Below, one piece after another: positions 1,957-63,968 of a stretch of DNA of 64,000 nucleotides (positions within the stretch are counted from its first letter, which is position 1; every line of letters begins with the position of its first letter). Both the position numbers and the translations under genes were made by a program. The stretch covers positions 6,204,001 to 6,268,000 of the forward strand of contig NC_018025.1 of the NCBI RefSeq assembly GCF_000266945.1, given 5' to 3'. A model generated the notes under the pieces. That model did not search any database, was not told where the DNA came from, and saw only the letters and a list, made by a program, of their open reading frames with translations. The DNA is from Desulfomonile tiedjei DSM 6799. GTDB lineage: Bacteria; Desulfobacterota; Desulfomonilia; Desulfomonilales; Desulfomonilaceae.

Positions 1957-4152
1957 TTATTGCAGAGTAGGTTTAGCAATACGGTATTTTCTCAACTTGG
2001 AGTAAAGCGTGGTTCGTCCAATGCCAAGAGTGCGGGCGGCTTTTTTCTTGTCCCAGTTACTCTCTGCCAGCGCTTGCTCAATCACTGCGCGTTCGCTTTC
2101 CATGATAAGGGGCAGATCCTTTGGAGATGTCGATCTTTGTCGATTGCGAAGCACTATGGGAAGATCTGAAGTCTCTATTCGGGATCCTTTGCAAAGGACA
2201 ACTGCGTGTTCCACCGAGTTCTCGAGTTCTCGGACGTTTCCAGGCCATTCATAGCTCAGAAGCATTCGCATGGATTCGGGGCTGAAGTCCGGAATCATCT
2301 TTTGCTGTTCTGCAGCAAATCTCTTCAGAAAGGCTTTAGCAAGAAGGGGAATATCATTGGGGCGTTGAGAAAGGGGAGGCAGAACAATTGGGATGACATT
2401 CAACCGATAATAAAGGTCTTCGCGGAAATTTCCCTTTCGGACTTCCTGGATGAGATCTTTATTGGTGGCGGCAATAACTCTCACATCGACTTTGATGGTT
2501 CGTTCACCGCCCAACCGCTCGAAACTCTGTGTCTGGAGAACTCTTAATAGCTTTATTTGGCTGGAAGGCGGAATCTCGCCAATTTCGTCCAAGAAAACGG
2601 TGCCTCCATCCGCTTGCTCGAAACGCCCGGCTCTCTGTCGAATGGCTCCGGTAAAAGCGCCTTTCTCATGTCCGAACAACTCGCTTTCCAGAAGAGTTTC
2701 AGGATATGCGGAGCAGTTGATCACAACGAAGCTGTTGTGCCTTCTTTCACTTTGCTGGTGTATCGCTCGAGCCACCAGTTCTTTTCCTGTGCCGCTTTCA
2801 CCTTGAACAAGAACTGTGGCATCAGTTGGGGCTATATCCTGAATCAGCCGGTAAACCACTTGCATTTTCGGGTCCTTCCCGATAATGCCGCAGAATTCAG
2901 CGGTTGTCTCGATCCGTGCACGAAATTCGCTCTCAGAAAGTGTGTGGACTATTGCCCGATTTAGTACCCCAGCAGACTGAGCGAGGATCAAAGCCGCTAA
3001 ATCTATGTCTTTCAGATCGCACGTGCAATTTTCCGGGCACGCAACAACGAGCCCCCCTATGACTGGGGAATCTCCGAGGAGAGGGACGAGGGCTTGCTGA
3101 GGGAACAACTGGAAAGATTCCGGCACAACAGGAGTATGAAAAAGAGAGTGAGCACATAGGATCCGGCCATCGGTGCCCTGGATAGTCTCTATAGCACTCT
3201 GGATTATTTTAGGGTCATTGATAGTCTTAAAATCATTTTCTGAAACCAGGAAGAGGGTAGTCTTGTCTTCGTCTAACATGAGTAAGACCATGTGCCTGCA
3301 AATGAGTATCCTCTGAAATCTCTTTATGAGAGCCGGACCGATTTCATTAAGTGTTGGTAAGGCGCCAATTTCGCGAACGATTTCACAGAAAGTCCGCGTC
3401 TGATTGTGGCTCCGTTCTAATTCCTTTGCTTTCTGCTCGAGACGCAGCGTGTAGTCTTTCAGACGTGTGACCATCTGGTTGAAAGAAGAAGCCAACCTCC
3501 CAACTTCATCAGCGCCTTTTATATCGACTGCAATATCAAGCTCCCCTTCATCCAATCTCTGTGTAGCTCGGGCGAGTTCCGAAAGAGGCAAAGTAATCCT
3601 ACGCACGAAGATCAGACTGCCCATTACTGCAAGCAACAGTATCCCGAGGGTGACCAGGCTGATTTGTATCCAGAGTTTCTTTACCTGTTCTTCAAAAGGT
3701 TTCTCGGAAAAACCCAGACGAAGCACGCCGGCGCCGCCCGAAAAGATCGGCCAAGCAATATCCAGATAGTGTTCGCCTTCCGAGGAGGCTATTCGCTGCA
3801 GATGTCCTTCGTCCTGGGAAAGCAATCGGTTTGCGTCAATCAGTTGAGCTGGAACACCTTTGGAAAAAGTGTGCGCAAGGATTCGGCCGTCTCTATAGAC
3901 GAAAAGATAGGCAAGAGACGGGTTGCTCCGCATTTGGTGCTCTAACATCTTTTGCAATGCAATCAAGTCATTGATCAGGATCTTGTCTGTTGCCTCAAGG
4001 GCGACGGCATGGGCGAGGTTTTCGGCTTGTGCAGTAATCGCCGTCCGGAGACTTTCACTGTAGCGTTGCGTTACCAGCAGCGAGATGATCAGACCGCTTC
4101 CCACTACGAGGGCAAAGACAGCTACGAGCAGTTTGCTTCTAAGGCTTTTCAT
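1957..4152 (-). CDS. Membrane-anchored HAMP-GAF sigma-54-dependent activator
   Basis: 731 residues from ATG (MKSLRSKLLV). Order: membrane helix about 7-30, periplasmic domain about 31-160, second helix about 163-186 followed by a HAMP linker, coiled segment, GAF-like domain about 265-410, AAA+ domain with Walker A GESGTGKE and the sigma-54 contact loop GAFTGA, then a Fis-type HTH at the C-terminus. No histidine-kinase or receiver domain is present, so one polypeptide senses outside the membrane and activates sigma-54 RNA polymerase. The start overlaps the end of the PhnD-like gene by 14 bp, and GGAGG lies upstream of both this ATG and a GTG at 4158. Likely targets are the downstream receiver/ferredoxin/NrfD genes. 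Confidence 0.85.
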   Translation of the reverse strand: MKSLRSKLLVAVFALVVGSGLIISLLVTQRYSESLRTAITAQAENLAHAVALEATDKILINDLIALQKMLEHQMRSNPSLAYLFVYRDGRILAHTFSKGVPAQLIDANRLLSQDEGHLQRIASSEGEHYLDIAWPIFSGGAGVLRLGFSEKPFEEQVKKLWIQISLVTLGILLLAVMGSLIFVRRITLPLSELARATQRLDEGELDIAVDIKGADEVGRLASSFNQMVTRLKDYTLRLEQKAKELERSHNQTRTFCEIVREIGALPTLNEIGPALIKRFQRILICRHMVLLMLDEDKTTLFLVSENDFKTINDPKIIQSAIETIQGTDGRILCAHSLFHTPVVPESFQLFPQQALVPLLGDSPVIGGLVVACPENCTCDLKDIDLAALILAQSAGVLNRAIVHTLSESEFRARIETTAEFCGIIGKDPKMQVVYRLIQDIAPTDATVLVQGESGTGKELVARAIHQQSERRHNSFVVINCSAYPETLLESELFGHEKGAFTGAIRQRAGRFEQADGGTVFLDEIGEIPPSSQIKLLRVLQTQSFERLGGERTIKVDVRVIAATNKDLIQEVRKGNFREDLYYRLNVIPIVLPPLSQRPNDIPLLAKAFLKRFAAEQQKMIPDFSPESMRMLLSYEWPGNVRELENSVEHAVVLCKGSRIETSDLPIVLRNRQRSTSPKDLPLIMESERAVIEQALAESNWDKKKAARTLGIGRTTLYSKLRKYRIAKPTLQ

Positions 4153-5131
4153 GCTCACGGATGCCTCCAATACCGCGGACAGCTTTTCGCGACATATTCC
4201 TGATGCTGTCGTACCACTCGTCCTGAGGATCTATGAAACGGTCGATCATAAGCTGATCGAGGATCTTCCTGCCTTTGGCATCCTGATGCATCGAGAAGAG
4301 CAGTTCGCTGATTGATGCTTTAGCCGCCGTTCCTAATGTCTTGGATGCTACCAGAGGTGGGATGCCGTAAGGGTCGGATTTCCGTATCACTCTGGTCGAG
4401 TTCGTGATCGATGGATTGCGCTGAGCATAAAAGTCCCATATCAAACCATCCACTGACGCTCCGTCTACCATGCCTTTTGCCACTGCCACAATGGAATTGT
4501 CGTGACTGTATGTATAGATCGATTGCTTAAAGAAATTCTCCGGACGCTCTCCAATTTGCATTAGCCAATCGGTAGGGACCAATTTGCCAGTATTGGAATC
4601 CGGGTCAGTAAAGGCAAAAACCCTCCCTCGCAAATCCTCCAAATTGTTGAACCGACTTTTCTCGTTGACTATCAAGTAAGCCTGGTAAAAGTGGCTTCCA
4701 TTAATTTCTGGGGTTGCTAATAGCTCGAAACCATACTTGTCCCTTTCGGTCGCATAAGGGCCTGAGCAAAGGAAGGCGAGGTCGATCTCACCTTTCCCAA
4801 GGAGTTCATTAATCTCGCCGTATGTCTTCCGCTGGACGAGTTCGACTTCTTGATTCAGCTTCTCTCCCAAATATTCGAGTAATTCTCTGTAATGAACGAA
4901 CGTCTCTTTCGGCGATACCATGGCTGCTATGGCGATTCTCAGCCCTTTGTGGTCAGGCGAATGCGGTTCGGGTCGGGAAACCTGTATGGTTTTTCCGAAA
5001 TCGACCTGGCGGTAATCATCATCGCTTTTACAGCCATAAATGGCAAGGATTGTCAGGATGACGATCGTGTACAGCATCTGCCATCTGCAAAACCGAACAG
5101 AGAAGTCAGAGTCAATGTCTGGAATGACCAT
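4139..5131 (-). CDS. PhnD-like phosphate/phosphonate-type binding lipoprotein
   Basis: 330 residues. The N-terminus has a hydrophobic segment ending in ILAIYGC, a plausible lipobox, so the mature protein is probably anchored outside the cytoplasmic membrane. The remainder has the PhnD fold signature: GLRIAIAAMVSPKETF near 63-78 and EIDLAFLCSGPYATE near 115-129, with Cys122 in the ligand-binding region. No ABC permease or ATPase is nearby; the gene is translationally coupled to the membrane sigma-54 activator instead. Family precedent: PhnD-like proteins act as sensor partners in the AioX/ArxX arsenite systems, and TtrS carries such a domain. An oxyanion sensing role is therefore likely. The exact start is uncertain. 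Confidence 0.75.
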   Translation of the reverse strand: MVIPDIDSDFSVRFCRWQMLYTIVILTILAIYGCKSDDDYRQVDFGKTIQVSRPEPHSPDHKGLRIAIAAMVSPKETFVHYRELLEYLGEKLNQEVELVQRKTYGEINELLGKGEIDLAFLCSGPYATERDKYGFELLATPEINGSHFYQAYLIVNEKSRFNNLEDLRGRVFAFTDPDSNTGKLVPTDWLMQIGERPENFFKQSIYTYSHDNSIVAVAKGMVDGASVDGLIWDFYAQRNPSITNSTRVIRKSDPYGIPPLVASKTLGTAAKASISELLFSMHQDAKGRKILDQLMIDRFIDPQDEWYDSIRNMSRKAVRGIGGIREHEKP

Positions 5132-15618: not shown

Positions 15619-18600
15619 TGACCCGCTTCAATCTGTCCGCTTTTGCTGTCCGCGAACGCGCTATCACCCTGTTTATGATTATTGCGATTATGGTGGCCGG
15701 GGGATTTGCCTTCCTGCATCTGGGACGGGCAGAAGACCCTAAATTCACCGTTAAGACCATGACGGTAACAGCCATATGGCCGGGAGCCACCGCAAAGGAA
15801 ATGCAGGAACAGGTGGGTGACCGGCTGGAAAAACGTCTTCAAGAACTTGAATTTTACGACCGGGTAGAAACCTCCGCATACCCCGGAATGCTCTTGATGA
15901 AGCTCCAACTTAAAGACTCCACGCCTCCCAAAGATGTGCCGGATGAATTCTACCAGACGCGAAAAAAGCTGGGGGATGAAAAAATTTACCTACCCCAAGG
16001 TGTGATTGGTCCGATTCTGAATGACGAATTTTCCGATGTGTATTTTGCCATGTATTCACTGGAAGCAAAAGGCCTTCCACACCGCCAGCTTGTGCTGGAG
16101 GCGGAAGCGCTTCGTCAGCGCCTTTCTCGGGTAGACGGCGTAGAGAAGGTCACCATTCTCGGCGAGCAGGATCCCAAAATCTATGTCGAGATTTCCTACA
16201 AACGCCTTGCAACTCTTGGGGTAAAGGCGACCGATCTGTTTCATGCACTAAGAACCCAAAATGATGTTACCCCTTCGGGGTTTGTGGATACGGCCGGACC
16301 GCGTGTCTATCTGCGCCTTGAAGGAGCCATTGACGGAGTCGAAGCAGTCAAGGCGATTCCCGTGGCAAGCGGGGGAAAATTACTGAAAATCGGTGATGTG
16401 GCCGAGGTCACCCGCGGCTACGAAGATCCGGCAACAAAACAGATACGTCACCAGGGAGAGCCTTCGATCATCCTGGCTCTGGTGATGAAAAAAGGCTTCA
16501 ACGGCCTGACATTGGGCAAGCTGCTGAAAGCCGAAGAGACGGCGATTCACAAAGAATTACCAGTCGGTCTTGTTCTGTCCAAGGTATCGGATCAGTCTCA
16601 GGTCATTTCCGAGGCCATTGACGAATTCATGATCAAATTCGCGGTTGCGCTTGCCGTTGTCATGGTGGTGAGTCTCGTAACGCTGGGGTTCCGCGTCGGG
16701 ATCGTTGTTGCTGCCGCAGTACCTCTTACCCTTGCCGCCGTGTTTGTCATCATGTTGCTTACCGGAAGGGATTTCGACCGGGTCACGCTGGGAGCGCTGA
16801 TTATTTCCCTGGGGCTGCTGGTGGATGATGCGATCATCGCCATCGAGATGATGGTGGTCAAAATGGAAGAGGGATTGGATCGGATCCAGGCTGCCACATT
16901 TGCCTGGACATCCACGGCCAGCCCCATGCTTTTCGGTACCCTGGTTACCATCGCCGGCTTCCTGCCGGTTGGTTTCGCCAAATCAACCGCAGGTGAATAT
17001 ACGGGAAATATATTCTGGGTAGTGGCATTCTCATTGATCACCTCGTGGTTTGTCGCAGTCCTCTTCACCCCCTACTTGGGCGTCAAGCTCCTACCTGACA
17101 TCAAACCTGTCATAGGAGGGCATGATGCTATTTATGCAACTCCGAACTATCAGCGGTTTCGTAGCATCGTGCGGCGGGTAGTTGATCATAAATGGATTGC
17201 AGGCGGACTAACGATTGTTCTTTTTATGTTGTCTGTGGTCGGAATGGGATCTGTGGAGAAACAGTTTTTTCCCAACTCAGACCGCCCCGAATTGATTGTT
17301 GACGTCAACCTTCCGCCTGGCAGTGCTTTTGCCGCGACCGATAGATCGGTAAAAAACATCGAAAAAAGAATTATGGCCGAGCCAGAGGCCAAAATAGTCA
17401 CCAGTTATATCGGCCACGGCATGCCACGCTTCATACTGCCGTTGAATCCCGAATTACCCAACCCGGCCTTTGCCCAAATTGTAGTCCTGACCGAAGGCCA
17501 TGCGGCGCGCGATGCGCTCAAGAAAAAACTTCGCCAAGTTATTGAACAAGGAGCGTTCCCGGAAGCACGCGTGTGGGTGAAGCAATTCGTTTTCGGTCCC
17601 CCTGTCACGTTTCCCGTGCTATTCCGTGTCATGGGACCGGACGTGGATGAGCTTCGCAGGATTGCGCGTGATGTTCAAGCCATCATGGCTGAAAATCCGA
17701 ACATGCGTGATGTGCATCTGGATTGGGGGGAACGAACTCCGAGCCAGCGCTTGGTCCTTGATCAGGATCGCCTGCGCCTCCTTGGCCTCACCCCGCAAGA
17801 ATCCGCGCTGCAATTACAGACGATTCTGAATGGCGCTCCCACCACGCAGATGCGCGAGGGCATCCGTTCGGTCGACGTGGTGGTTCGCTCTCCCGGTTCC
17901 GAGCGCCATAGCCTGGAGAACCTAGGCAATGTGACTTTGACCACCAGGGACGGGCGCTCGATCCCGCTATCACAGATGGCTCACCTCGAATCCCGGATGG
18001 AAGATCCCCTGCTGAAACGCTACAACCGCGAGCCGTATATCGCTGTTCAGGGGGATGTCGTGGACGGGGTCCAGCCTCCGGATGTAACGGCCCAAATTCT
18101 CCCCAAACTGGATAAACTGAAGGCAGCCCTTCCCGTAGGATATCGCATAGAAACGGGTGGTTCCGTGGACGAGAGCAAGAAGGCCGATGCGGCGCTGGGA
18201 CTTCTTTTCCCGCCGATGATACTTCTGATGCTGATATTCATCATGATTCAGGTCCGGTCATTTGCCACCATGTTCATGGTGTTTGCCACTGCTCCTCTTG
18301 GCTTGGTCGGGGCAGTGCCAACCCTGCTCGTTTTCCATCAGCCATTTGGATTTAACGCAATTCTCGGTTTGATTGGGTTGGCGGGGATCATCATGCGCAA
18401 TACGCTGATTCTGGTGGACCAGATCCACTACGATAAGGCAGCAGGATTAAGTGATTACGATGCCATACTCGAATCCACCGTACGCCGTGCGCGCCCGGTA
18501 GTCCTGACCGCTGTGGCTGCAATGCTTGCCTTTATCCCCCTGACTTTTTCGAGCTTCTGGGGATCAATGGCCTATGTCCTGATTGGCGGAGTTGGCGTTG

Positions 18601-51977: not shown

Positions 51978-52517
51978 CTAGAACCAGAATTCAGGGTAAC
52001 GCCTGTGGTTCCCAATATTGTTAAATGCAAGTGCGATGAGCAGGAGGAACAACGCCCCTGCTCCGACTGGCGCAAGCACATAGAAAAACCCGAGATCGTG
52101 AATTTTTTCAGGGCCAATGACTGCAAAAAGTGCTGTGGCTCCCCCCGGTGGATGGAGCGTTCTCGTCACCTGCATCAGCGCGATAGCAGTGGCAGTTCCA
52201 ATTGAAGCCGCAAGCAATGGATGCCCGTGGAGGATCTTGAAGGACAAAACTCCGACAAGCGCTGAGATCACGTGCCCTCCAACAAGACTTCGCGGCTGGG
52301 CGAAGAAGTGCCGTCTGTTGCCAAACACGAGAACCGCCGAGGCACCAAAGGCACTTATGAGCGCAAATGCAGCCTCACCGTCCGGAATATTGAAGTGGGC
52401 AAAACCCAGACCAGTGATTCCGAGAAATGCGCCCAACCACAAACGCCAGATGTCACGAAGAGCGGTTTTTTCGGTATACCCGGATTGGTCTTGTCGTTCT
52501 TTCGAAGAGTGCTCCAT
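51978..52517 (-). CDS. HPP-family membrane protein, first copy
   Basis: About 179 residues from the ATG after GGAGCAGATACT; four membrane helices with the family motif RTLHPPGGATALFAVIGPE. HPP proteins have been linked to nitrite or other anion transport in some organisms, but function is not settled. It is a clear paralogue of the protein at 63.4 kb, with identical stretches such as QPRSLVGGHV and ASAVLVFGNR. No operon partner apart from the nearby FmdB-like gene. Confidence 0.85.
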   Translation of the reverse strand: MEHSSKERQDQSGYTEKTALRDIWRLWLGAFLGITGLGFAHFNIPDGEAAFALISAFGASAVLVFGNRRHFFAQPRSLVGGHVISALVGVLSFKILHGHPLLAASIGTATAIALMQVTRTLHPPGGATALFAVIGPEKIHDLGFFYVLAPVGAGALFLLLIALAFNNIGNHRRYPEFWF

Positions 52518-52650
52518 AGTATCTGCTCCAGATAGCACGCCCAGAGCATTCGCTACCACGGAAAGCAGCATGCACTACAAAACTGAACGGCTACCACGCA
52601 TTCTGTTTTTTCTGGGCAATGACTCGAGTGAAGCGATCAGCACATCCGAT

Positions 52651-52953
52651 TCATTCTGGCTCAGTCTTTCCAAGGGCAGCATCGACCTGTGCTTGGAACG
52701 GGTTGGGCCTTGTCAGTTTGACTGCGCAACGGCAGGCATGCGTATGCCCGCAAGACTTGGCTCCTTGGGGACGGATGCGCTTTCCGTTCGCTGCTCTGGA
52801 GGATGAGACGACACTAAACATAGAAACTTCCGACGCCTTCATCACACCACCGCACTGAACACAGAGGAGTTCCAGTTCATTCTTCGTCCTTTGATCGACG
52901 AGCACGTCGCGACTTGCGGAACATTCGGCACAAAAGAACTCATAGATCGGCAT
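52651..52953 (-). CDS. FmdB-type zinc-ribbon protein
   Basis: 100 residues from the ATG after GGAGAGACAGC: MPIYEFFCAECSASRDVLVD then LLCVQCGGVMK, the two CxxC pairs of FmdB/putative regulatory zinc ribbons. A second cysteine/histidine group (SCGHTHACRC) occurs in the tail, which is unusual. Function uncertain. Confidence 0.75.
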   Translation of the reverse strand: MPIYEFFCAECSASRDVLVDQRTKNELELLCVQCGGVMKASEVSMFSVVSSSRAANGKRIRPQGAKSCGHTHACRCAVKLTRPNPFQAQVDAALGKTEPE

Positions 52954-53070
52954 GCTGTCTCTCCTTCCTCGAATCAAACTTGCTGACGCCGGTTTTTTTG
53001 AGGCGACTCTCCGGTGGTAAGCCCTTCATTTTGGAGTGACGCTGTAAGCATTGGCTATGGGACTTCGCCG

Positions 53071-53222: not shown

Positions 53223-55085
53223 CTAGACTGACGATTCTTGTGCAAGTGCCGAGACATGGTCCTTCACCAAAGCCACCGCTGCGTTGGCGTCGGAGCCGTA
53301 CTTCACGCCCATCTTTGCGGCAATCTGATCATTCATGGCGGCTCCTCCGACTATCACGAGGTACTTTCCAGGCTGCTCTTGCGCCTTGAGCGCATCAACG
53401 GTTTCTTGCGCGTAAACTACCGACGAGTTGGTCATCACCGACATGCCAATAGCGACTGTGTTGTGAACCTGAGCAGCTTTAACAAACTGTTCGGCTTTCA
53501 CGTTCTTACCCAAATCAATCACGTTGAATCCGCTGGCTTTTAACATGAGGACTACGAGGTTCTTTCCTATATCCTGTGCGTTACCTCGAACCAGCCCCAC
53601 AATCACTGTCTCCTTTTTTCTCTCTCCCGCGGCGCCAGCTTCAAGTAGCGGAGTCAGGATGACCATCGCCTTTTCCATGGTCTTGGCCGACTTTAACATG
53701 TCGGTAACGAAACGTTCGTTGCGCTCGTACAGGTCTCCAGCCATCTTCATCCCCAAGGACAGGCCGTCGAAGATGATCTGCTGAGGGGACAGGCCCCGCT
53801 CAAGGCCCTTGCTGGTCCATTCGACCACCTTTTCTCCGTCATATTCCAGAATCGCGTCTGCCAGATTGAAGAATACCTCTTCTTCCGGAGATCTCTCAGC
53901 TACCCGGGCCTTTTGAATCCCCATCCTGACTAAGGGGTCGCTCTCCGTGGAGATCTTGCGCATGCCCGGATGTTGCGGGTGGCCAGGCAGGTAGACTTTG
54001 CTGAGGTCACCCAGGGCCTCTACATCCATCGGGTATTTGATTGACGCGCACGTATCGATCAACGCTCGCAAGTTTTCGTCAGGCACCGTCCAGTCGATAT
54101 CGCACCCCGGCATGACGATGAATCCGCCATTGTATCCAACCTCGGCTGCCAGTTTCTTCACCTCGTTGGCCACGTCCTGGGGGGTGCCGTGAGTAAGCGT
54201 CGAGTAAGGACTGAGAGTGCCCATCAGCGACATCTGACCGCCTATGGCTCGCTTCGCGACATCCGCTCCAGGGTAAAGGTCGCCGTTGAAATTGACGCAT
54301 CCGCTAGTGACGACGTCGGACCAAATCGGTTCGGTATATGTGCAACAGTGGGAGAAGGGGAATCCTCCGATTTCCTTGATATAAGCGAACAGATCTTTCT
54401 GGTAAGGCAGTCCGAACTCGCGGAACATGTCGGGCGGAAGAATATCGCAGGAACAGAAGGGATCGGGGACATTTACCACATCGACTCCCGCTTCGACCAT
54501 CATTGCCGCAATGCTCTTCGCGTTGTCGAGGCAGAGTTCGATAATTTCCTTGGCAAACTCCGGATCTTCTGCCAGGAAGGTGAAAAACTCGTCTGTGCCT
54601 GTCACCATTTGGGCTGTGGTGATAGGACCGCAGACCGGCGTGGCCAGCACATGGGTATCTTTCAGTCCTGCTTTGATATACGTACGGATTTCCTGTTGAA
54701 TGGCTCTCATGCGCCCTTTTTCGGGATTGAACCCTTTCGAGAAATAAGCTTCCTTCAGGCGATAAAAGTCCTCTTTGGTTGGCGCAGGGTGTTGGACCAG
54801 GGAGGGCTGCGCATATGGGAGGTACTCCAACACCGCTCCCAGATTTTCCACCGGTACCAATATGTCGGTGCCGGCCACTATTACGTCGCCTCCAAACTTC
54901 TCAAGAGCCTTGATTTTGGCTCTGGCTTGTGCCTCGCCATCAAAGAGTACCTGGTCGACCCTGACACCTCCCTCGCGAATGCCGCGTGACAAGAACAGGG
55001 GATTTACAGGTACTTGGTCGGGCAGCGATTCCATAGTTACTGCCACAATAGCTCTTTCTCGGCTGGTCATTTTCGGTATGCTCAT
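53223..55085 (-). CDS. UroD-type methyltransferase fused to a corrinoid-binding domain with altered ligand motif
   Basis: 620 residues. The N-terminal 390 or so are a uroporphyrinogen-decarboxylase/MtaA-type methyltransferase with zinc ligands in SHCC (His246, Cys248) and MPGCD (Cys328). Next come a helical cap (about 400-490) and a Rossmann cobalamin domain. The usual DxHxxG motif reads GNAQDIGKN: the lower-ligand histidine is glutamine (about residue 504) and the aspartate asparagine. Remaining motifs GMSVMT and VIVGGAAMND are intact. The start is placed at MSIPKMTSRE, after GGAG. The MtrH-like gene upstream would exchange methyl groups with it. Confidence 0.85.
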   Translation of the reverse strand: MSIPKMTSRERAIVAVTMESLPDQVPVNPLFLSRGIREGGVRVDQVLFDGEAQARAKIKALEKFGGDVIVAGTDILVPVENLGAVLEYLPYAQPSLVQHPAPTKEDFYRLKEAYFSKGFNPEKGRMRAIQQEIRTYIKAGLKDTHVLATPVCGPITTAQMVTGTDEFFTFLAEDPEFAKEIIELCLDNAKSIAAMMVEAGVDVVNVPDPFCSCDILPPDMFREFGLPYQKDLFAYIKEIGGFPFSHCCTYTEPIWSDVVTSGCVNFNGDLYPGADVAKRAIGGQMSLMGTLSPYSTLTHGTPQDVANEVKKLAAEVGYNGGFIVMPGCDIDWTVPDENLRALIDTCASIKYPMDVEALGDLSKVYLPGHPQHPGMRKISTESDPLVRMGIQKARVAERSPEEEVFFNLADAILEYDGEKVVEWTSKGLERGLSPQQIIFDGLSLGMKMAGDLYERNERFVTDMLKSAKTMEKAMVILTPLLEAGAAGERKKETVIVGLVRGNAQDIGKNLVVLMLKASGFNVIDLGKNVKAEQFVKAAQVHNTVAIGMSVMTNSSVVYAQETVDALKAQEQPGKYLVIVGGAAMNDQIAAKMGVKYGSDANAAVALVKDHVSALAQESSV

Positions 55086-55256
55086 TCCGATCCACTCCAT
55101 TGGCAAGATTATGTTGTTTCCGAATCAAGAAAAGGATTTCTTAACATCTAATCGCATGGATTAGTTTCTATGACCTCACCTCCTTTTCCCCACCAGCCGA
55201 AGTGCCTCAAGCCGGGTGCTCCTATCGACTGCAGGAAGGAAACCATTCAAACGGCC

Positions 55257-56168
55257 TTAAGTGTTCTCTGACGACAATTTGAACATTTTCCATAGGGCAT
55301 GTTCTCTTGGCAGAGTCACTCCGTCCAATTCCTGGGCTGCAAAGCCGTAGAACACTTCCGCGGTTCCGGCAACATGAGCCGCCACTGCGGCCTTCTCGAT
55401 AATGCCGTAATGCAAGAAATCCCCTCCAGCGGCTCGGCAAGCTACAAGGGCGGCAGCCAATGACAAATCGACCCATTCTCGACCAAGGTTACTTAGACCT
55501 GTCCATTGGGAAAAGCAGTTAGAGAAGGCACATCCCGCCGGATAGCCGAACCGCTCCCGAACAGCGCTTATCTGACGAAGATTCAGTCCCACAGAGGGAG
55601 GATCCATGGTTCCAACGTCGACGATCGGCACAGTGACGTCGATCTCCTTCAACATGGGACTGAAAAACGATTCAATCATTTCACAGGTTCCTTCGGGTGT
55701 TGGGTTGCCCACATCGGCGGCGAGGAGCATGACAGCGGCTGGGCGTTGGCGGCCCAAGGCCTGCAGTTCAGAGCTTTCCGTGTCCTCATTAAGCGACGCA
55801 TAGATGCATTGCCCCAGAATTTGAAGCTTGGCGGCGGCTTCGAGTCCCGCAAGACGCACCTCTGCCTCGGTAGAGTTGATAAGCAATGGCAGGCTGGTAC
55901 GCTTGCCGACAAATTCTAGAAACCTCTCCATTGCTTCTGCGGTCGCGGCGATGACGTCAAACCCCATCTGGACTCCGTAACGTCCACTAAGCGTGTTTAC
56001 TCGGTCTACCAAAGCGGCTGCGCGGCGTGCATCAAATTCCCCCGAGAAGGAATCAGCAACAATCGAGTGCTTGTCATAGAAAATGCTGCCCACCACCAAA
56101 CCGGTCGTAGATCCGTGCGGTCCTCCTATGGTTGCGTTCCCAATCCTAATGGGATGATAATCTACCAA
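55257..56168 (-). CDS. MtrH-family methyltransferase (methyltetrahydrofolate/pterin:corrinoid)
   Basis: 303 residues, resembling tetrahydromethanopterin S-methyltransferase subunit H and its bacterial relatives: GGPHGSTTGLVVGSIFYDKH near 15-34, PLLINSTEAEVR, VPIVDVGTMDPPSVG. Start is TTG at 56168 with AGGGAGGA upstream. It likely moves methyl groups between the corrinoid protein encoded downstream and a tetrahydropterin, feeding the acetyl-CoA pathway. Separated from that gene by about 170 bp. Confidence 0.82.
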   Translation of the reverse strand: MVDYHPIRIGNATIGGPHGSTTGLVVGSIFYDKHSIVADSFSGEFDARRAAALVDRVNTLSGRYGVQMGFDVIAATAEAMERFLEFVGKRTSLPLLINSTEAEVRLAGLEAAAKLQILGQCIYASLNEDTESSELQALGRQRPAAVMLLAADVGNPTPEGTCEMIESFFSPMLKEIDVTVPIVDVGTMDPPSVGLNLRQISAVRERFGYPAGCAFSNCFSQWTGLSNLGREWVDLSLAAALVACRAAGGDFLHYGIIEKAAVAAHVAGTAEVFYGFAAQELDGVTLPREHALWKMFKLSSENT

Positions 56169-56361
56169 GTCGGGTTCCTCCCTTGGAAATGGCGATCGCC
56201 ACTGAGTCAGTGCCTGGATGAGACCAACTCGTCACATCCCCTCTAATCGTGTTTCACAAAAGAGAGCGATCTCAGGAAAAAAAGGTTCGGTTCAGATGAT
56301 TTTTTTCGGGGGGCCGCGGGACGGAATGTCAGAGACTTACACCCCATTTCCGGACGTCGAG

Positions 56362-57753
56362 CTAGATGAAGTCAGACCGAACAAATCTGTCCAAATCGCA
56401 AGGTCGGTCTAAAACACCGGTATTAAGCGCCAGGCTCATCAAAGATTCAATTCGGCTTCGATCGGGCTCTATTTCATTGAAGGAGATGTCGGTTCCCGTA
56501 AGCACCTCTAGGATGATCTTGGCAGAGACACCCGTATATTGCTCCTGTATCTTGGAGCAATGTTCGGGCGCTTTCCTGATATACGCATTTGCCGCGCGAA
56601 GCAGTCTAAGATAATCCACAAAAATTTCGCATTCTTTATCAACAAACTCTTCCCTCACAACCAGAATGCAGCAAATGTGTCCAGGCAGTATATCTTTTGA
56701 CCTCGCGTAGATTTGGCCCATGCCCTCGCAGGCAGCTTTGGTGTTCCAGGGTTCCGCGCATAAGAAAGCGTCGATGTCGGACGAGGCCAGAGAGCTGAGA
56801 AGATACGAAGGCCCCAGATACTTGGCTTGCATTCCGGACAAAGGTCTTTTCGGGGAGACTTCTATCAGGCTGGAAAGCATCAAACCATGTGTCGAGACAA
56901 TGTGCGGCATGCCTACGCGGCGCCAGGACGAAGTCCGACGGCTCATCTCATTATTTCTCACAGTTATGGCACTCCCCTCATGGTGGGCGTCCATGACATA
57001 AAGGATTGGAAGTCCTTCATTGCGGAGGGCCATGGCCAAAGGAGCCATGATAAAGGCAGCGTCCAGCAATCCGCCTCGAAGAGAGGATGCCAGGCTCGAC
57101 CAGGACAGATATTTTTTGAGATGGATTTCAAAGTTCTGGTGATCGTGAATTGAATGCGACACCATAGCCATGAGATGATCTGATACCGGCAGGTATCCAA
57201 CTCGAATAACAGGCCGATGCTGATCTTTGACTTTCTGAACGATCTTGTCTCTTGCATCATTTAGGCGCCTTTTTATGGTTCCTTGGGGTACACCAAGCAT
57301 GTCTGCGATTTCCTTGTAGGAACGGCCAAAGACATAACGTTGAACGCACGCCTCACGGCTCACACCTTCCAAAGACGCCAAAACGTCTGCCACCATGGAT
57401 CGGGTCTGGAGACTAACCATGGCCTCCAGAGGGCTGGGCTGGCAATCGACAACCTCGCCTAGGAAATCCAGGTCGACTGGGGAGAACATCTGCCATTGTC
57501 TTTCGAGACGATTACAACAAGAAGAAAGAATCCTTCTGAACCAGGCAGGGAACGCACTCAAATCCCTGAGATCCGAAAGCTGCGCATAGACCATTAGAAA
57601 AGCCTCCTGCACAGCATCCTCCGCCAGTCCTGTGTCTCTCAGCCGTCGTTTTGCCAAGGCAACTGCCATTTCCTGAAATCGGATGACCAATTCTGAAAAC
57701 GCTCCCTTGTCACCCGCTGCCGCAGACTGAACGATTTGCTGAAGATTCTTCAT
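56362..57753 (-). CDS. ECF sigma factor fused to an NrtA/SsuA-like ligand-binding domain
   Basis: 463 residues. Residues about 10-80 are sigma region 2 (AEDAVQEAFLMVYAQLSDLR and AWFRRI) and about 118-175 are region 4 (YKEIADMLGVPQGTIKRRLN). From about 182 the chain becomes a periplasmic-binding-protein fold: VIRVGYLPVSDHLMAMVSHS, SLASSLRGGLLDAAFIMAPL, and IDAFLCAEPWNT, as in nitrate/cyanate/sulfonate binding proteins. No signal peptide is possible, so this sensor domain is cytosolic, like NasS. No anti-sigma gene is nearby. Inference: ligand binding directly controls the sigma factor for the nitrilase and methyltransferase genes around it. Confidence 0.85.
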   Translation of the reverse strand: MKNLQQIVQSAAAGDKGAFSELVIRFQEMAVALAKRRLRDTGLAEDAVQEAFLMVYAQLSDLRDLSAFPAWFRRILSSCCNRLERQWQMFSPVDLDFLGEVVDCQPSPLEAMVSLQTRSMVADVLASLEGVSREACVQRYVFGRSYKEIADMLGVPQGTIKRRLNDARDKIVQKVKDQHRPVIRVGYLPVSDHLMAMVSHSIHDHQNFEIHLKKYLSWSSLASSLRGGLLDAAFIMAPLAMALRNEGLPILYVMDAHHEGSAITVRNNEMSRRTSSWRRVGMPHIVSTHGLMLSSLIEVSPKRPLSGMQAKYLGPSYLLSSLASSDIDAFLCAEPWNTKAACEGMGQIYARSKDILPGHICCILVVREEFVDKECEIFVDYLRLLRAANAYIRKAPEHCSKIQEQYTGVSAKIILEVLTGTDISFNEIEPDRSRIESLMSLALNTGVLDRPCDLDRFVRSDFI

Positions 57754-57833: not shown

Positions 57834-58604
57834 TCAGAAGCCATATGATTCACCATCCTCAGGCACTAATACGCGCTGCGTCATCCCATTTTCCTTGAGG
57901 AAGTCACGCAGTTCTTTTCTCGATAGAGTTGCGTGGTTCACAGACTCCATATGGCTGGCAATAATGGTTGCCCCTGCTGCTGCCTGATACACATCATAAA
58001 CATCCTGTTTGCCCATGATGATGGAGCCAAGGCCAATGACCTGAGCGTCGCCGCTGTTCAGGACAATGACATCGGGTGCATATTTGTTTAGATTATCTTC
58101 GACGTACTGATTCCAGACAGTATCCCCTGCGAGATAAAGGGTTCTTTCGTCAGGATGCTTAAAGACAACACCGCATACTTCCCCCAGTACATCCCCCATT
58201 CTTCCTAGGGCCTCATCAGTGCCATGCTGGCCAGGGGTTTTGATGAGAGTTATGTCATAAAAAACAGTATGCTCGGTCAGAATCCGAGTGTTGATGAATC
58301 CTGTCGCCTGAATGTCTGCTGCATCTTTCTCGTTCTGCGCAAAGATAAGCATCTCTTTAGGCGCCAGATTTTTGGCGGCTTCGTCCCAGTGGTCCGGGTG
58401 AACATGGGTAACAATTATCGCATCGACATCAAGAACCTCGTTTACGGAAAGAGGCAAATCGACTAGCGGATTGAACTTATGGCTATTGACAGTGCCCTCG
58501 AATCCAGGATATGCCCCCTTTTCTGCCAGCATGGGGTCAACTAGAATTTTTTTGCCTGCATATTCGATTTTGATGGTCGCGTTTCGCACTTGTAAGATCT
58601 TCAT
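57834..58604 (-). CDS. Metallo-beta-lactamase-fold hydrolase (UlaG-like)
   Basis: 256 residues. Metal-binding motif THVHPDHWD (His67, His69, Asp71, His72), GDTVWNQY with the bridging aspartate and SHMESVNH near the C-terminus. Start ATG overlaps the nitrilase stop (ATGA), so they form one translational unit. UlaG-type members hydrolyse lactones or related esters; the substrate here is unknown but is likely a nitrilase-related metabolite. Confidence 0.85.
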   Translation of the reverse strand: MKILQVRNATIKIEYAGKKILVDPMLAEKGAYPGFEGTVNSHKFNPLVDLPLSVNEVLDVDAIIVTHVHPDHWDEAAKNLAPKEMLIFAQNEKDAADIQATGFINTRILTEHTVFYDITLIKTPGQHGTDEALGRMGDVLGEVCGVVFKHPDERTLYLAGDTVWNQYVEDNLNKYAPDVIVLNSGDAQVIGLGSIIMGKQDVYDVYQAAAGATIIASHMESVNHATLSRKELRDFLKENGMTQRVLVPEDGESYGF

Positions 58605-59629
58605 GAGATATCGTTGCCTCCCTTTCTTTCGTCGGAGGGATCATGTTCCAATGTATTCGACACCACTTTATGTTCCCCGCTAAAGGGCATAACTACAGGA
58701 TTGGGACTGGAGTTGAACATCAAACGAACGACATCGGGGCGTGAATAATGCCCCACCGGGTCGGCGACTGATTTGGCATAGGCGATCATACCTAGATCGA
58801 TTTCCGCAACAAGCAACCCTTCAGCGTTTTCCGGCAATGGTTCTGCCAAGGGCGAGCCATCCGGACCGAAAATGCGCGCATGGCCACCGCCGGGTTTCAG
58901 GAACTCGGCCTTGTCCGGAGTGTCGCAAAGAAGATCGACCATCTCTTGCGAAATCGTCGCGCAGGCGGCCACCACAAAACACTGGCCTTCGGCGGCGTAC
59001 ATTTGACTGGCGGCGCTGTTCAGTTCAGGCCCCAAGGCGTAGGCAATGCCGCTGTAGAGGCTGAAGCTGGGCCAGGAGGCTATGTGAATTTGCTCATTTT
59101 GTGAATACATGGCGTACTTGGTGAGCGGCTGCAAATGCTCCCAACAACACAGGGCTCCAACCCGGCCGATTTCGGTGTCGTGAACAACCAGGTGACTGCC
59201 GTCGCTCTCGCCGAACACCGTGCGTTCAACGTGGGTTGGCTTCAATTTTCGACGACGGGAAATGACTTCACCGTCAGGCCCGTAGTGCCATTGCCCCATG
59301 TAGAGACTCCCGCCGTCCTTCTCGGAAACGCCGACAATTGCGTGCAGTCTGTTGCGACGTGCAGCCTCGCACAACGCCTCATCATGCTCGCCGCCAACAA
59401 TCACGGAATTCTGGTGATAGCGTCCGACAAATTGCATTCCCCAGGCTGGCGCGCCGAGCCAGATCCACCATGGATAGCCGGGAATCCAAGTCTCGGGGAA
59501 GGCAATGAGCTTCACACCCTGGGAACCGGCGTCGTCCATAAAGGCGATCGCTTTCTCAACCGACTTGTCGAGATCCAGAAATACCGGTGCTGCCTGTACA
59601 GCAGCCACTTTCAATGGTGATTGCGCCAT
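58601..59629 (-). CDS. Nitrilase
   Basis: 342 residues, with the Glu-Lys-Cys triad intact: FPETWIPGYP (Glu46), RRKLKPTHVER (Lys130) and GALCCWEHLQP (Cys162). The loops and length match true nitrilases that convert organic nitriles to carboxylic acid and ammonia, rather than amidases. It leads a minus-strand transcript including the MBL hydrolase. The AraC-family gene is divergent from it, an arrangement used for nitrile-inducible nitrilases. Confidence 0.93.
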   Translation of the reverse strand: MAQSPLKVAAVQAAPVFLDLDKSVEKAIAFMDDAGSQGVKLIAFPETWIPGYPWWIWLGAPAWGMQFVGRYHQNSVIVGGEHDEALCEAARRNRLHAIVGVSEKDGGSLYMGQWHYGPDGEVISRRRKLKPTHVERTVFGESDGSHLVVHDTEIGRVGALCCWEHLQPLTKYAMYSQNEQIHIASWPSFSLYSGIAYALGPELNSAASQMYAAEGQCFVVAACATISQEMVDLLCDTPDKAEFLKPGGGHARIFGPDGSPLAEPLPENAEGLLVAEIDLGMIAYAKSVADPVGHYSRPDVVRLMFNSSPNPVVMPFSGEHKVVSNTLEHDPSDERKGGNDIS

Positions 59630-60982: not shown

Positions 60983-61496
60983 CACTTTCATTGTCGTGGT
61001 ACAGAGGGTGGAACCGGGGCGGGTTCTGAGAATCGCGATCCGGTCGGTTCTTTTTGTCATTGTCAATTCTACGCAAGGGCTGCTCAGTTCTCTCTTTTTT
61101 GGAATTAACAGTCCTATCAAAACGCCTAATTTCATCATTTCTACTAATAGCGGTAATGAAGAAAACACACCATAACTGGCTGGGTTGCTCTGTGGGGCAT
61201 AGTCACACCACTTAAGGGTGAAAGCTTTTGGGGGAGCTGGGGCGACTGGATTTGGTCTATCCTTGCCAGCTCATCGCCCTCGACTCACTATAGGAATAAC
61301 CGTTTCAGATTTGGCGGCTATGAGCATAGTCACGTTTGATGACCTGTTTTGCGGGAAACTGGTGAGTTCCCGGCCTCCAATAGCTGTATCCTCTGATCGG
61401 ACCTGTTGGTCAACTTCAGGCATGGAACTCTCCCTCTTTTGTCGAACACAGTGGCTGAGTCTACCACGACTAGGCATCGCTGGGCCAAGAAATGCG
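60983..61496. other. Intergenic stretch and non-homologous lead-in to the polymerase remnant
   Basis: No gene supported. An open frame begins at 61218 and continues into the polymerase remnant, but its first 93 codons resemble no polymerase and have no ribosome site. Confidence 0.35.
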
Positions 61497-61949
61497 AACT
61501 CTCGTGCTCAGGCCAAGACTGTCAACTTCTCCATTTGCTACGGTGGAACCGAATGGTCGCTCAAGGACAATTTGGGGCTCGGGTTCAGAGGGTTCGAGCA
61601 AGCTCAGCAGATCTTGGCCGAAATGAAACACATCTATCCCGGCCTGTTTGCTTACCTTGAAGGCGTGAAGGAGACTTTGGAGAACTCCCCGGATGGTGAA
61701 CAGTACGTACGCTCTATTCGTGGCCGCAGGAGGGGATTCGCGCACTCCGGAGAATTGACTGAGCGAGAAAGACGACAGGCGGCTAATGCCGTCGTACAAA
61801 TGTTAGAAGCCGATGTATTTAAGAAAACAGTCCTGGAACTTGATAAGGCTTTTAAGCGGGAGGGTCTTCCTGTAGAGATAGCGCTGCAGCTGCATAACGG
61901 CATATGGTTCGCATGCCCTCAAGATCTTCAGGAGAGTGCTAAGACATAA
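61497..61949 (+). pseudogene. Family A DNA polymerase fragment
   Basis: From about 61497 the frame reads NSRAQAKTVNFSICYGGTEW, the motif B (R...K...F..YG) of DNA polymerase I, and continues through GRRRGFAHSGELTERERRQA to the C-terminus. Everything N-terminal, including motif A and the exonuclease, is missing. Motif C, normally HDE, reads HNG in LQLHNGIWF, so the catalytic aspartate is lost. A decayed polymerase remnant, possibly from a mobile element. Confidence 0.75.
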
Positions 61950-62249: not shown

Positions 62250-62987
62250 TCAAATAATCTTTGCCGAAACGTCCATTTCTTCTGCGCGGAACAGAACCTG
62301 CCCGTGAAAATTCATCAGTCGGACCAAAGCATTCCAGTCCCCGGATGCCTTCCCCCCCAAGTGGTAGGCGCAAACTCCTTTAACCGGGAGCCCATCCAGA
62401 AAGCCGTCCAAGGCTTCCTCGAAGGTGAATAGTTCCCCACGGGAACAGCAACCTTCCAACGTAGGGGATCCGGAACCTATCATTCCTTTATAGCCTCGTT
62501 CGATGGCTCTGTGAGCCGCTGACCGCCAGGCATCGGCTGCGGCCATAGGGCCAGATCTTTCGCAGATGCTCGCCAGATCTGCAATTACCATCTCTCCCGC
62601 CGCCTCAAATTTGGCTACGGGAAACCCTCTCTCTGTCAAAACCTTTCGGACTTCTTCCGGCTTTTGCCACCAGCAGGCTTTGAAGAGGAGATATCCCTTT
62701 CGAGCATTTTCTCTGAAAAAACTAGCCTCAAAGTCCCAAACATCATTTTGTTCAGCCATCAGTGCCAGCGTGTGGCCAGGAACAAATTCGACTGACGCGG
62801 AACGACGGTGCAGTAGAGGAGAGGCCCCTGCTGTTTTCTGCATGAACTCGGCAAGCTTTTCTCTGTCGATGCGCCACTCCTTGCCAAATTTCGCGGCGGG
62901 CAGTTGGCCCAGACGGCACATTTTGTACACCGTGTTGGTGTGCGCTCTCAGAATTGATGCGACTTCTTCAACTGTCAAAAGGTCCAT
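62250..62987 (-). CDS. Excisionase-type HTH fused to a MEDS/DcmR-like sensory domain
   Basis: 245 residues. Residues 1-52 are a MerR/excisionase-type HTH (VEEVASILRAHTNTVYKMCR and KEWRIDREKLAEFM). The C-terminal 170 residues, with HTLALMAEQNDVWDFEASFF, GYLLFKACWWQKPEEVRKVL and MIADLASICERSG-like features, resemble the MEDS domain of DcmR, a repressor of dichloromethane dehalogenase also found with methanogen/methylotroph corrinoid systems. The corrinoid methyltransferase genes at 53-56 kb are a possible target. The domain call is moderate. Confidence 0.65.
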   Translation of the reverse strand: MDLLTVEEVASILRAHTNTVYKMCRLGQLPAAKFGKEWRIDREKLAEFMQKTAGASPLLHRRSASVEFVPGHTLALMAEQNDVWDFEASFFRENARKGYLLFKACWWQKPEEVRKVLTERGFPVAKFEAAGEMVIADLASICERSGPMAAADAWRSAAHRAIERGYKGMIGSGSPTLEGCCSRGELFTFEEALDGFLDGLPVKGVCAYHLGGKASGDWNALVRLMNFHGQVLFRAEEMDVSAKII

Positions 62988-63413: not shown

Positions 63414-63968
63414 TCAATCGGGTTTTCGATGAATCCAGAACTCAGGGTAACGCCTCTCGCTGGCTATGTTATTTACCAAAAGTGCGGTGAACAAGAGAAA
63501 CAAAGCTCCTGCTCCTGCAGGCGCAATAACGTAAGAGAACCCCATGTTATGAATGCTGTCAGGGCCAATTACCGCGAAAAGTGCCGTACCTCCGCCCGGT
63601 GGATGCAGGGTTTTGGTCAGTTGCATAGCCGCAATAGCAGCGGCAGTTCCGATGCCCGCAGCAAGCCATGGATGTCCTGGTAAGAGCTTGAATGATAAGA
63701 CGCCCGCAAGAGCTGATAGCACATGTCCTCCAACGAGGCTCCGGGGCTGTGCGAAGAAATGTTGTCTGTTGCCAAACACCAGAACCGCCGATGCGCCAAA
63801 AGCGCTTGTGAGAAGCAATGAATCTTGGCCGGAAGGGACAGTAAAATCCACAAGCCCCAGTCCTGCGATTCCGAGAAACGCCCCCAAGCACCATCGGCAA
63901 GCATCCCGAAGGGTGACTTTCTCGGCAGGTTTCGTCTCGTCCAGTAATATTTTCGAATTCTGTACCAT
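63414..63968 (-). CDS. HPP-family membrane protein, second copy
   Basis: 184 residues, four helices, family motif KTLHPPGGGTALFAVIGPD. Shares long identical stretches with the protein at 52.0 kb, including the YPEFWI end, so the two are close paralogues 11 kb apart on the same strand. GAGG precedes the ATG. Function uncertain (membrane transport suggested for some members). Confidence 0.85.
   Translation of the reverse strand: MVQNSKILLDETKPAEKVTLRDACRWCLGAFLGIAGLGLVDFTVPSGQDSLLLTSAFGASAVLVFGNRQHFFAQPRSLVGGHVLSALAGVLSFKLLPGHPWLAAGIGTAAAIAAMQLTKTLHPPGGGTALFAVIGPDSIHNMGFSYVIAPAGAGALFLLFTALLVNNIASERRYPEFWIHRKPD

Follow-up and report, generated by a model that had tools for sequence, protein, structure and literature searches.

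Gene content of the locus

The window, a stretch of 64,000 nucleotides of the Desulfomonile tiedjei DSM 6799 genome, contains a gene that joins an ECF sigma factor to a binding-protein fold (hereafter the fusion; Table 1). As the earlier note had described, the fusion sits among nitrilase, hydrolase and methyltransferase genes. Directly downstream is a cmuB-cmuA-fmdB operon with an HPP gene as its end, and the presence of both cmuA and cmuB marks this operon as a cmu (chloromethane utilisation) cluster. D. tiedjei has two neighbouring cmuA copies that are 78% identical, and the strain was reported to carry a single cmuBCA cluster and, 6 kb away, a single partial cmuBA cluster (PMC4197683). The cluster downstream of the fusion is the partial one, in which no gene separates cmuB from cmuA, and its cmuBA-fmdB genes are the proposed target of the sigma factor. 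The complete cluster, where a gene for 436 aa stands between these two, lies just beyond the right edge of the window. It also ends in an HPP gene (window 63414–63968; L213 2925–7001), which suggests a place for HPP in the cmu metabolism of D. tiedjei. Between the cmu clusters lies part of a gene for a family A DNA polymerase (window 61218–61949), consistent with past rearrangement, and a gene combining an excisionase-type HTH with a MEDS sensory domain (window 62250–62987) adjoins them. An excisionase beside cmu genes is mentioned in PMC4197683; a search of the text of that paper found no mention of a sigma fusion or of HPP.

Table 1 Features at the fusion locus, in window coordinates.
Feature	Position	Strand	Basis
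ECF sigma factor/binding-protein fusion gene, 463 aa, ATG start	56362..57753	-	ORF, Pfam, full-length homologues
Fusion sigma region 2, residues 23–87	57493..57687	-	Pfam PF04542 Sigma70_r2, 2.8e-8
Fusion sigma region 4, residues 121–170	57244..57393	-	Pfam PF08281 Sigma70_r4_2, 5e-10
Fusion NrtA/SsuA/CmpC-regulatory-domain-like fold, residues 180–463	56365..57216	-	Pfam PF13379, structure matches, invariant residues
Predicted ECF-type promoter: -35 GAACCTTTT, -10 GCTCTC	56261..56290	-	Matrix rank 1, exact core match
cmuB-like methyl-corrinoid:H4folate methyltransferase (MtrH family), first gene of proposed target operon	55257..56168	-	
cmuA-like two-domain methyltransferase/corrinoid protein	53223..55106	-	
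FmdB-like zinc-ribbon protein	52651..52977	-	Zn_ribbon_8 1e-6, under gathering score; FmdB listed with the cluster in PMC4197683
HPP-family membrane protein, putative small-anion channel	51978..52571	-	TM_HPP 4.8e-52
Metallo-beta-lactamase-fold hydrolase, upstream of fusion, possibly co-transcribed with the fusion gene	57834..58604	-	
Nitrilase (CN_hydrolase), upstream neighbour of fusion, without sigma motif upstream	58601..59629	-	

An ECF sigma factor with a complete binding-protein fold

The fusion had been described as one 463-residue chain in which ECF regions 2 and 4 are followed by a complete binding fold, with no signal peptide, and Pfam, an AlphaFold2 model and hydrophobicity agree with this description. 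The matches to Sigma70_r2, Sigma70_r4_2 and NMT1_2 (residues 182–397, 1.1e-23) are all above the Pfam gathering scores; the NCBIfam family SsuA_fam covers residues 183–462 (1.2e-20), a match under the family cut-off. Regions 2 and 4 are separated by a linker of ~33 residues with no region 3, as is characteristic of ECF factors, and the sigma part can be aligned with RpoE, AlgU and SigW. In the AlphaFold2 model, made with 23 related fusions as input (pLDDT 82.6, pTM 0.63), the folded extension after region 4 (residues ~180–463) is a complete binding-protein fold. Structure prediction, suggested in the earlier note as a check, thus bears out the proposed architecture, with Z scores of 33–37 to known binding proteins (37.4 for 3un6, 34.3 for NrtA 2g29 and 33.3 for the CmpC regulatory domain 9uai). 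The sigma part is assigned by sequence, since the binding domain fills the list of structure matches. The fusion is therefore confirmed as a real single chain of an ECF sigma factor and a complete NrtA/SsuA-type binding fold. A sequence scan for hydrophobic segments detected none of the length that a signal peptide or membrane helix requires, supporting a predicted cytosolic location of the binding domain, with no export signal. Sensor residues invariant in the 28 fusions compared (see below) include D192, H193, W218, D255, H257, H258, H289, C332, P335, W336, H359, C361 and C362.

For anti-sigma factors of the zinc type, the absence likewise claimed from the sequence holds across the comparison: at 28 loci, no ORF with a zinc-type anti-sigma motif and a membrane helix lies within 4 kb of the fusion. 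ECF factors with C-terminal extensions are already known, and those covered in the available part of a review (PMC8999054), such as ECF238 (CorE), ECF42 with TPR and ECF52 (SCO4117), likewise carry a sensory or regulatory domain after regions 2 and 4; they share with the fusion the lack of an anti-sigma factor and a proposed conformational control. Their extensions, named in that part of the review as SnoaL, Cys-rich, TPR, WD40, membrane/zinc and carbohydrate-binding, include no binding-protein fold, in contrast to the ~280-residue extension of the fusion, and the primary classification (10.1093/nar/gkaa1229) may describe an SBP-bearing group. Our literature search found no paper describing an ECF factor with a binding-protein-fold extension. 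The SnoaL-like domain that marks ECF41 and ECF56 is absent from the fusion among the 19 Pfam families listed. With the NrtA, SsuA and NitT/TauT binding proteins the fusion has the fold and core motifs in common, but unlike them it has no export signal, carries a fused sigma factor and has no adjacent ABC transporter genes, either in the window or as conserved neighbours of the other fusions. The C-terminal regulatory domains of the cyanobacterial ABC transporters CmpC/NrtC are also NrtA-like domains on the C-terminus of a cytosolic effector, which is an ATPase in CmpC/NrtC and a sigma factor in the fusion.

Recurrence and evolution of the fusion

The earlier note had proposed a domain search over genomes, and this shows that the fusion recurs with conserved neighbours. 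No fusion was found in 99 near relatives besides D. tiedjei itself, and 395 genomes of the phylum contain three. Scans of named contigs added further copies from Nitratidesulfovibrio, Desulfovibrio sp. A2 and MAGs, and one fusion is on an IMG/VR contig (L113). A family-wide census of the Desulfovibrionaceae identified full-length fusions in 25 of 288 genomes (26 loci, 11 genera), making, with D. tiedjei, 27 full-length loci in 26 genomes. Its occurrence in many genomes means that the fusion is neither due to chance nor a lone assembly artefact, the latter being ruled out by recurrence. Spread by plasmids was also considered and rejected, as a plasmid collection gave no match. The IMG/VR copy, a near duplicate of L172, was added to the 27 loci to give the comparison set of 28. 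On L113, which IMG/VR classed as viral, a phage-baseplate-like gene adjoins the fusion locus (3528–4652).

A tree of the binding domains places all 28 fusions in a single clade (100/100 support), separate from 13 free binding proteins. Identities of the sigma and sensor parts correlate (r=0.93), indicating that the two parts diverge together. dN/dS is 0.11–0.33 for the sigma part and 0.04–0.41 for the sensor, where it is below 0.25 in six of seven pairs and the maximum comes from the near-identical pair L113/L172. Elsewhere in the phylum (L012, L021 and L053), the same binding-domain subfamily is joined to receiver domains of response regulators, and two of these proteins continue into an apparent CheW domain; these look like a further use of the subfamily as a cytosolic sensor.

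A predicted promoter motif beside the 28 fusion genes

At all 28 loci, the motif GGKAACYTTTT-N11-SGCTCTT (in shorter form KAACYTTTT-N12-GCTCT) lies in the gap that separates the fusion stop from the following gene, and this ECF-type motif beside the fusion is new here. The predicted -35 element is of the GGAAC type at each locus (consensus GGKAACYTTTT; CCGAACCTTTT at the window site). Scores are between 16 and 35 bits, the window site, 73 nt past the fusion stop and ~93 nt ahead of the cmuB start, being the weakest (16–17 bits). With a matrix trained on 20 sites and the window site left out, it ranks first of 127,942 positions, with 17.2 bits vs. 13.6 for the second (16.2 vs. 15.1 before one training site was re-registered). 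The second-best score, at window 15961–15990 on the minus strand, belongs to a sequence without the AAC core. We sought the regulon by pattern search, and the core of the window site is the sole exact match in the 6.5-Mb D. tiedjei genome (6,527,027 bases; the larger of its two contigs has 6,500,104). Of 11 exact matches across 15 other genomes, 9 belong to fusion loci; a reversed control pattern gave a total of two matches. The two extra exact matches, in G630 and G656, probably arose by chance, since one is within or antisense to a kinase gene and the other in a mobile-element-like region.

The earlier note had proposed a search for a promoter motif shared by the nitrilase and MtrH genes: the motif precedes cmuB, as it does the gene after the fusion at the other loci, and is missing upstream of the nitrilase (4.8 bits, no site). 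The nitrilase operon was on this ground rejected as the target of the fusion. The complete cmuBCA cluster, unlike the partial one, is also without the motif (5.6 bits upstream of the second cmuB, no site). Upstream of the fusion gene itself the motif is absent at the 28 loci, so transcription of this gene does not seem to depend on the factor itself; matches to sigma-70-like sites in this region came from two loci only. Overall, the wiring of fusion, adjacent promoter and operon is well supported by sequence comparison.

A molybdoenzyme operon follows the fusion in Desulfovibrionaceae

In the Desulfovibrionaceae, the fusion is followed by genes for a cytosolic PsrA/PhsA-type molybdoenzyme (~711 aa) and a polyferredoxin (~185 aa), and the same operon carries an HPP or an FNT membrane protein, which interchange between loci. 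The molybdoenzyme (E<1e-150) is encoded in 26 of the 288 genomes, and 25 of these are fusion genomes; it is thus present in 25/25 genomes with the fusion vs. 1/263 others (p 4e-35, uncorrected for phylogeny). D. tiedjei lacks it, the best match having 30% identity, but its cmu operon ends in HPP, making HPP the only gene family common to both kinds of target. Apart from the target operon, no neighbour is conserved among the fusion loci. The earlier suggestion of a nitrile- or cyanate-like ligand, which had been based on the nitrilase, is not upheld: in addition to the missing motif, the neighbours elsewhere are the molybdoenzyme and HPP/FNT, and no nitrilase was seen beside fusions in other genomes.

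Formate dehydrogenases have a Sec/Cys-His pair. The molybdoenzyme instead has the aligned metal-ligand cysteine in the sequence HCDSAK and its best matches are PhsA/PsrA, and its assignment as a formate dehydrogenase was rejected. Four molybdoenzyme operons (L174, L175, L211 and L212) have neither an adjacent fusion nor the motif, and the region ahead of their first gene scores at most 3.5, -0.1, 4.7 and -1.6 bits; the L175 operon has a transposase upstream and an FmdE-like gene downstream.

Proposed mechanism and candidate ligands

Direct ligand control of sigma by the fused sensor is the most economical reading of these data, and we consider it probable that the whole system is a one-protein, ligand-gated sigma factor with an adjacent promoter and a small anion as ligand. 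The N-terminal ECF sigma would recognise KAACYTTTT-N12-GCTCT just downstream of its own gene and start transcription of the adjacent operon, i.e. cmuBA-fmdB-HPP in D. tiedjei and the PsrA-like molybdoenzyme, polyferredoxin and HPP/FNT genes in Desulfovibrionaceae. The C-terminal NrtA/CmpC-type domain would be a receptor kept in the cytosol that masks sigma when ligand-free, and domain closure on a small anion would free sigma, as nitrate frees CmpC from its own regulatory domain. For the gating and its direction we infer relief of inhibition from two precedents: the C-terminal NrtA-like domain of CmpC senses nitrate and then releases the ATPase from inhibition (PMC13249358), and ECF extensions have been reported to keep the factor inactive without ligand (PMC8103513).

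The ligand is probably a small monovalent anion that passes through the target operon's HPP or FNT channel, since HPP transports nitrite (Maeda 2014, as cited in PMC7438415) and FNT channels carry formate and nitrite (PMC5572259, PMC4390861). Formate would also fit because chloromethane oxidation through tetrahydrofolate passes via formate (PMC3621897). Formate and nitrite are the best candidates, and the suggestion of one ligand for both target operons comes from a single gene family, HPP being all that they share. A nitrate-like small anion, as originally proposed, is possible. The lysine in the GHPGKVLGV sequence of the CmpC regulatory domain, which corresponds to the nitrate-contacting lysine of NrtA, aligns with Cys362 of the fusion, and this makes nitrate itself doubtful as the ligand. 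The nearest free binding proteins (L178, L181 and L182) have ABC transporter genes as neighbours, with a permease and an ATPase in L178 and L181, and some also adjoin a gene for a CooS-like CO dehydrogenase; these neighbours do not fix the ligand, as their names are read from sequence.

We regard it as unlikely that the binding domain is instead an activator or assembly scaffold, with the ligand-bound form making sigma competent in the manner of the C-terminal part of CorE. CorE-like factors need their C-terminal domain for activity (PMC8999054), and the sensor is more conserved than the sigma part of the fusion; however, the CmpC regulatory domain, which is the closest structural precedent, works by ligand-relieved inhibition. 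Sensing of a metal or a thiol-reactive species via D255, H257, H258, H289, H359, C361 and C362, with the operon as a stress response, would be in keeping with the invariance of this His/Cys set in the 28 fusions and with the nearest solved relative, 3un6, which is titled as having zinc bound and matches the fusion at HH, STH and CC; CorE is a metal-responsive precedent. Many free binding proteins of this group have the CC pair too, and several of these adjoin ABC permease/ATPase genes; the products of the target operons are anion channels and catabolic enzymes rather than metal efflux systems, so that we think metal or thiol sensing quite unlikely. A domain that has lost ligand binding and is only an interaction platform for another regulator could act like the TPR extension of ECF42, which works by protein contact (PMC8999054), but the many invariant residues of the sensor, the purifying selection on it and the lack of a conserved partner protein beyond the target operon make this improbable. 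Finally, the motif, as a promoter predicted from sequence, is very improbable as an upstream element of another regulator, given that it follows the fusion (28/28 loci with, 0/4 without) and has ECF-like sequence and spacing.

Implications

The adjacent operon genes are most likely what the fusion turns on in sulfate-reducing bacteria. In the broader picture, we put it at slightly better than even that receptor sigma factors of this kind are a widespread family whose transporter-type domain reads a cytosolic formate- or nitrite-like anion to control promoter recognition directly, with links to HPP or FNT as interchangeable anion channels and to either a chloromethane-type methyltransferase or the uncharacterised cytosolic molybdoenzyme. 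If the ligand-gated model is true, receptor, sigma factor and target promoter would form a self-contained chemical-to-transcription switch within about 1.6 kb, which could be portable as a biosensor and for which an in vitro test is direct. The fusion extends the range of sensor types among ECF extensions, for most of which no signal is known. It is the first candidate cmu regulator in an anaerobe, none having been found earlier in the literature searched, and it provides a handle on the substrate of the uncharacterised molybdoenzyme in sulfate reducers.
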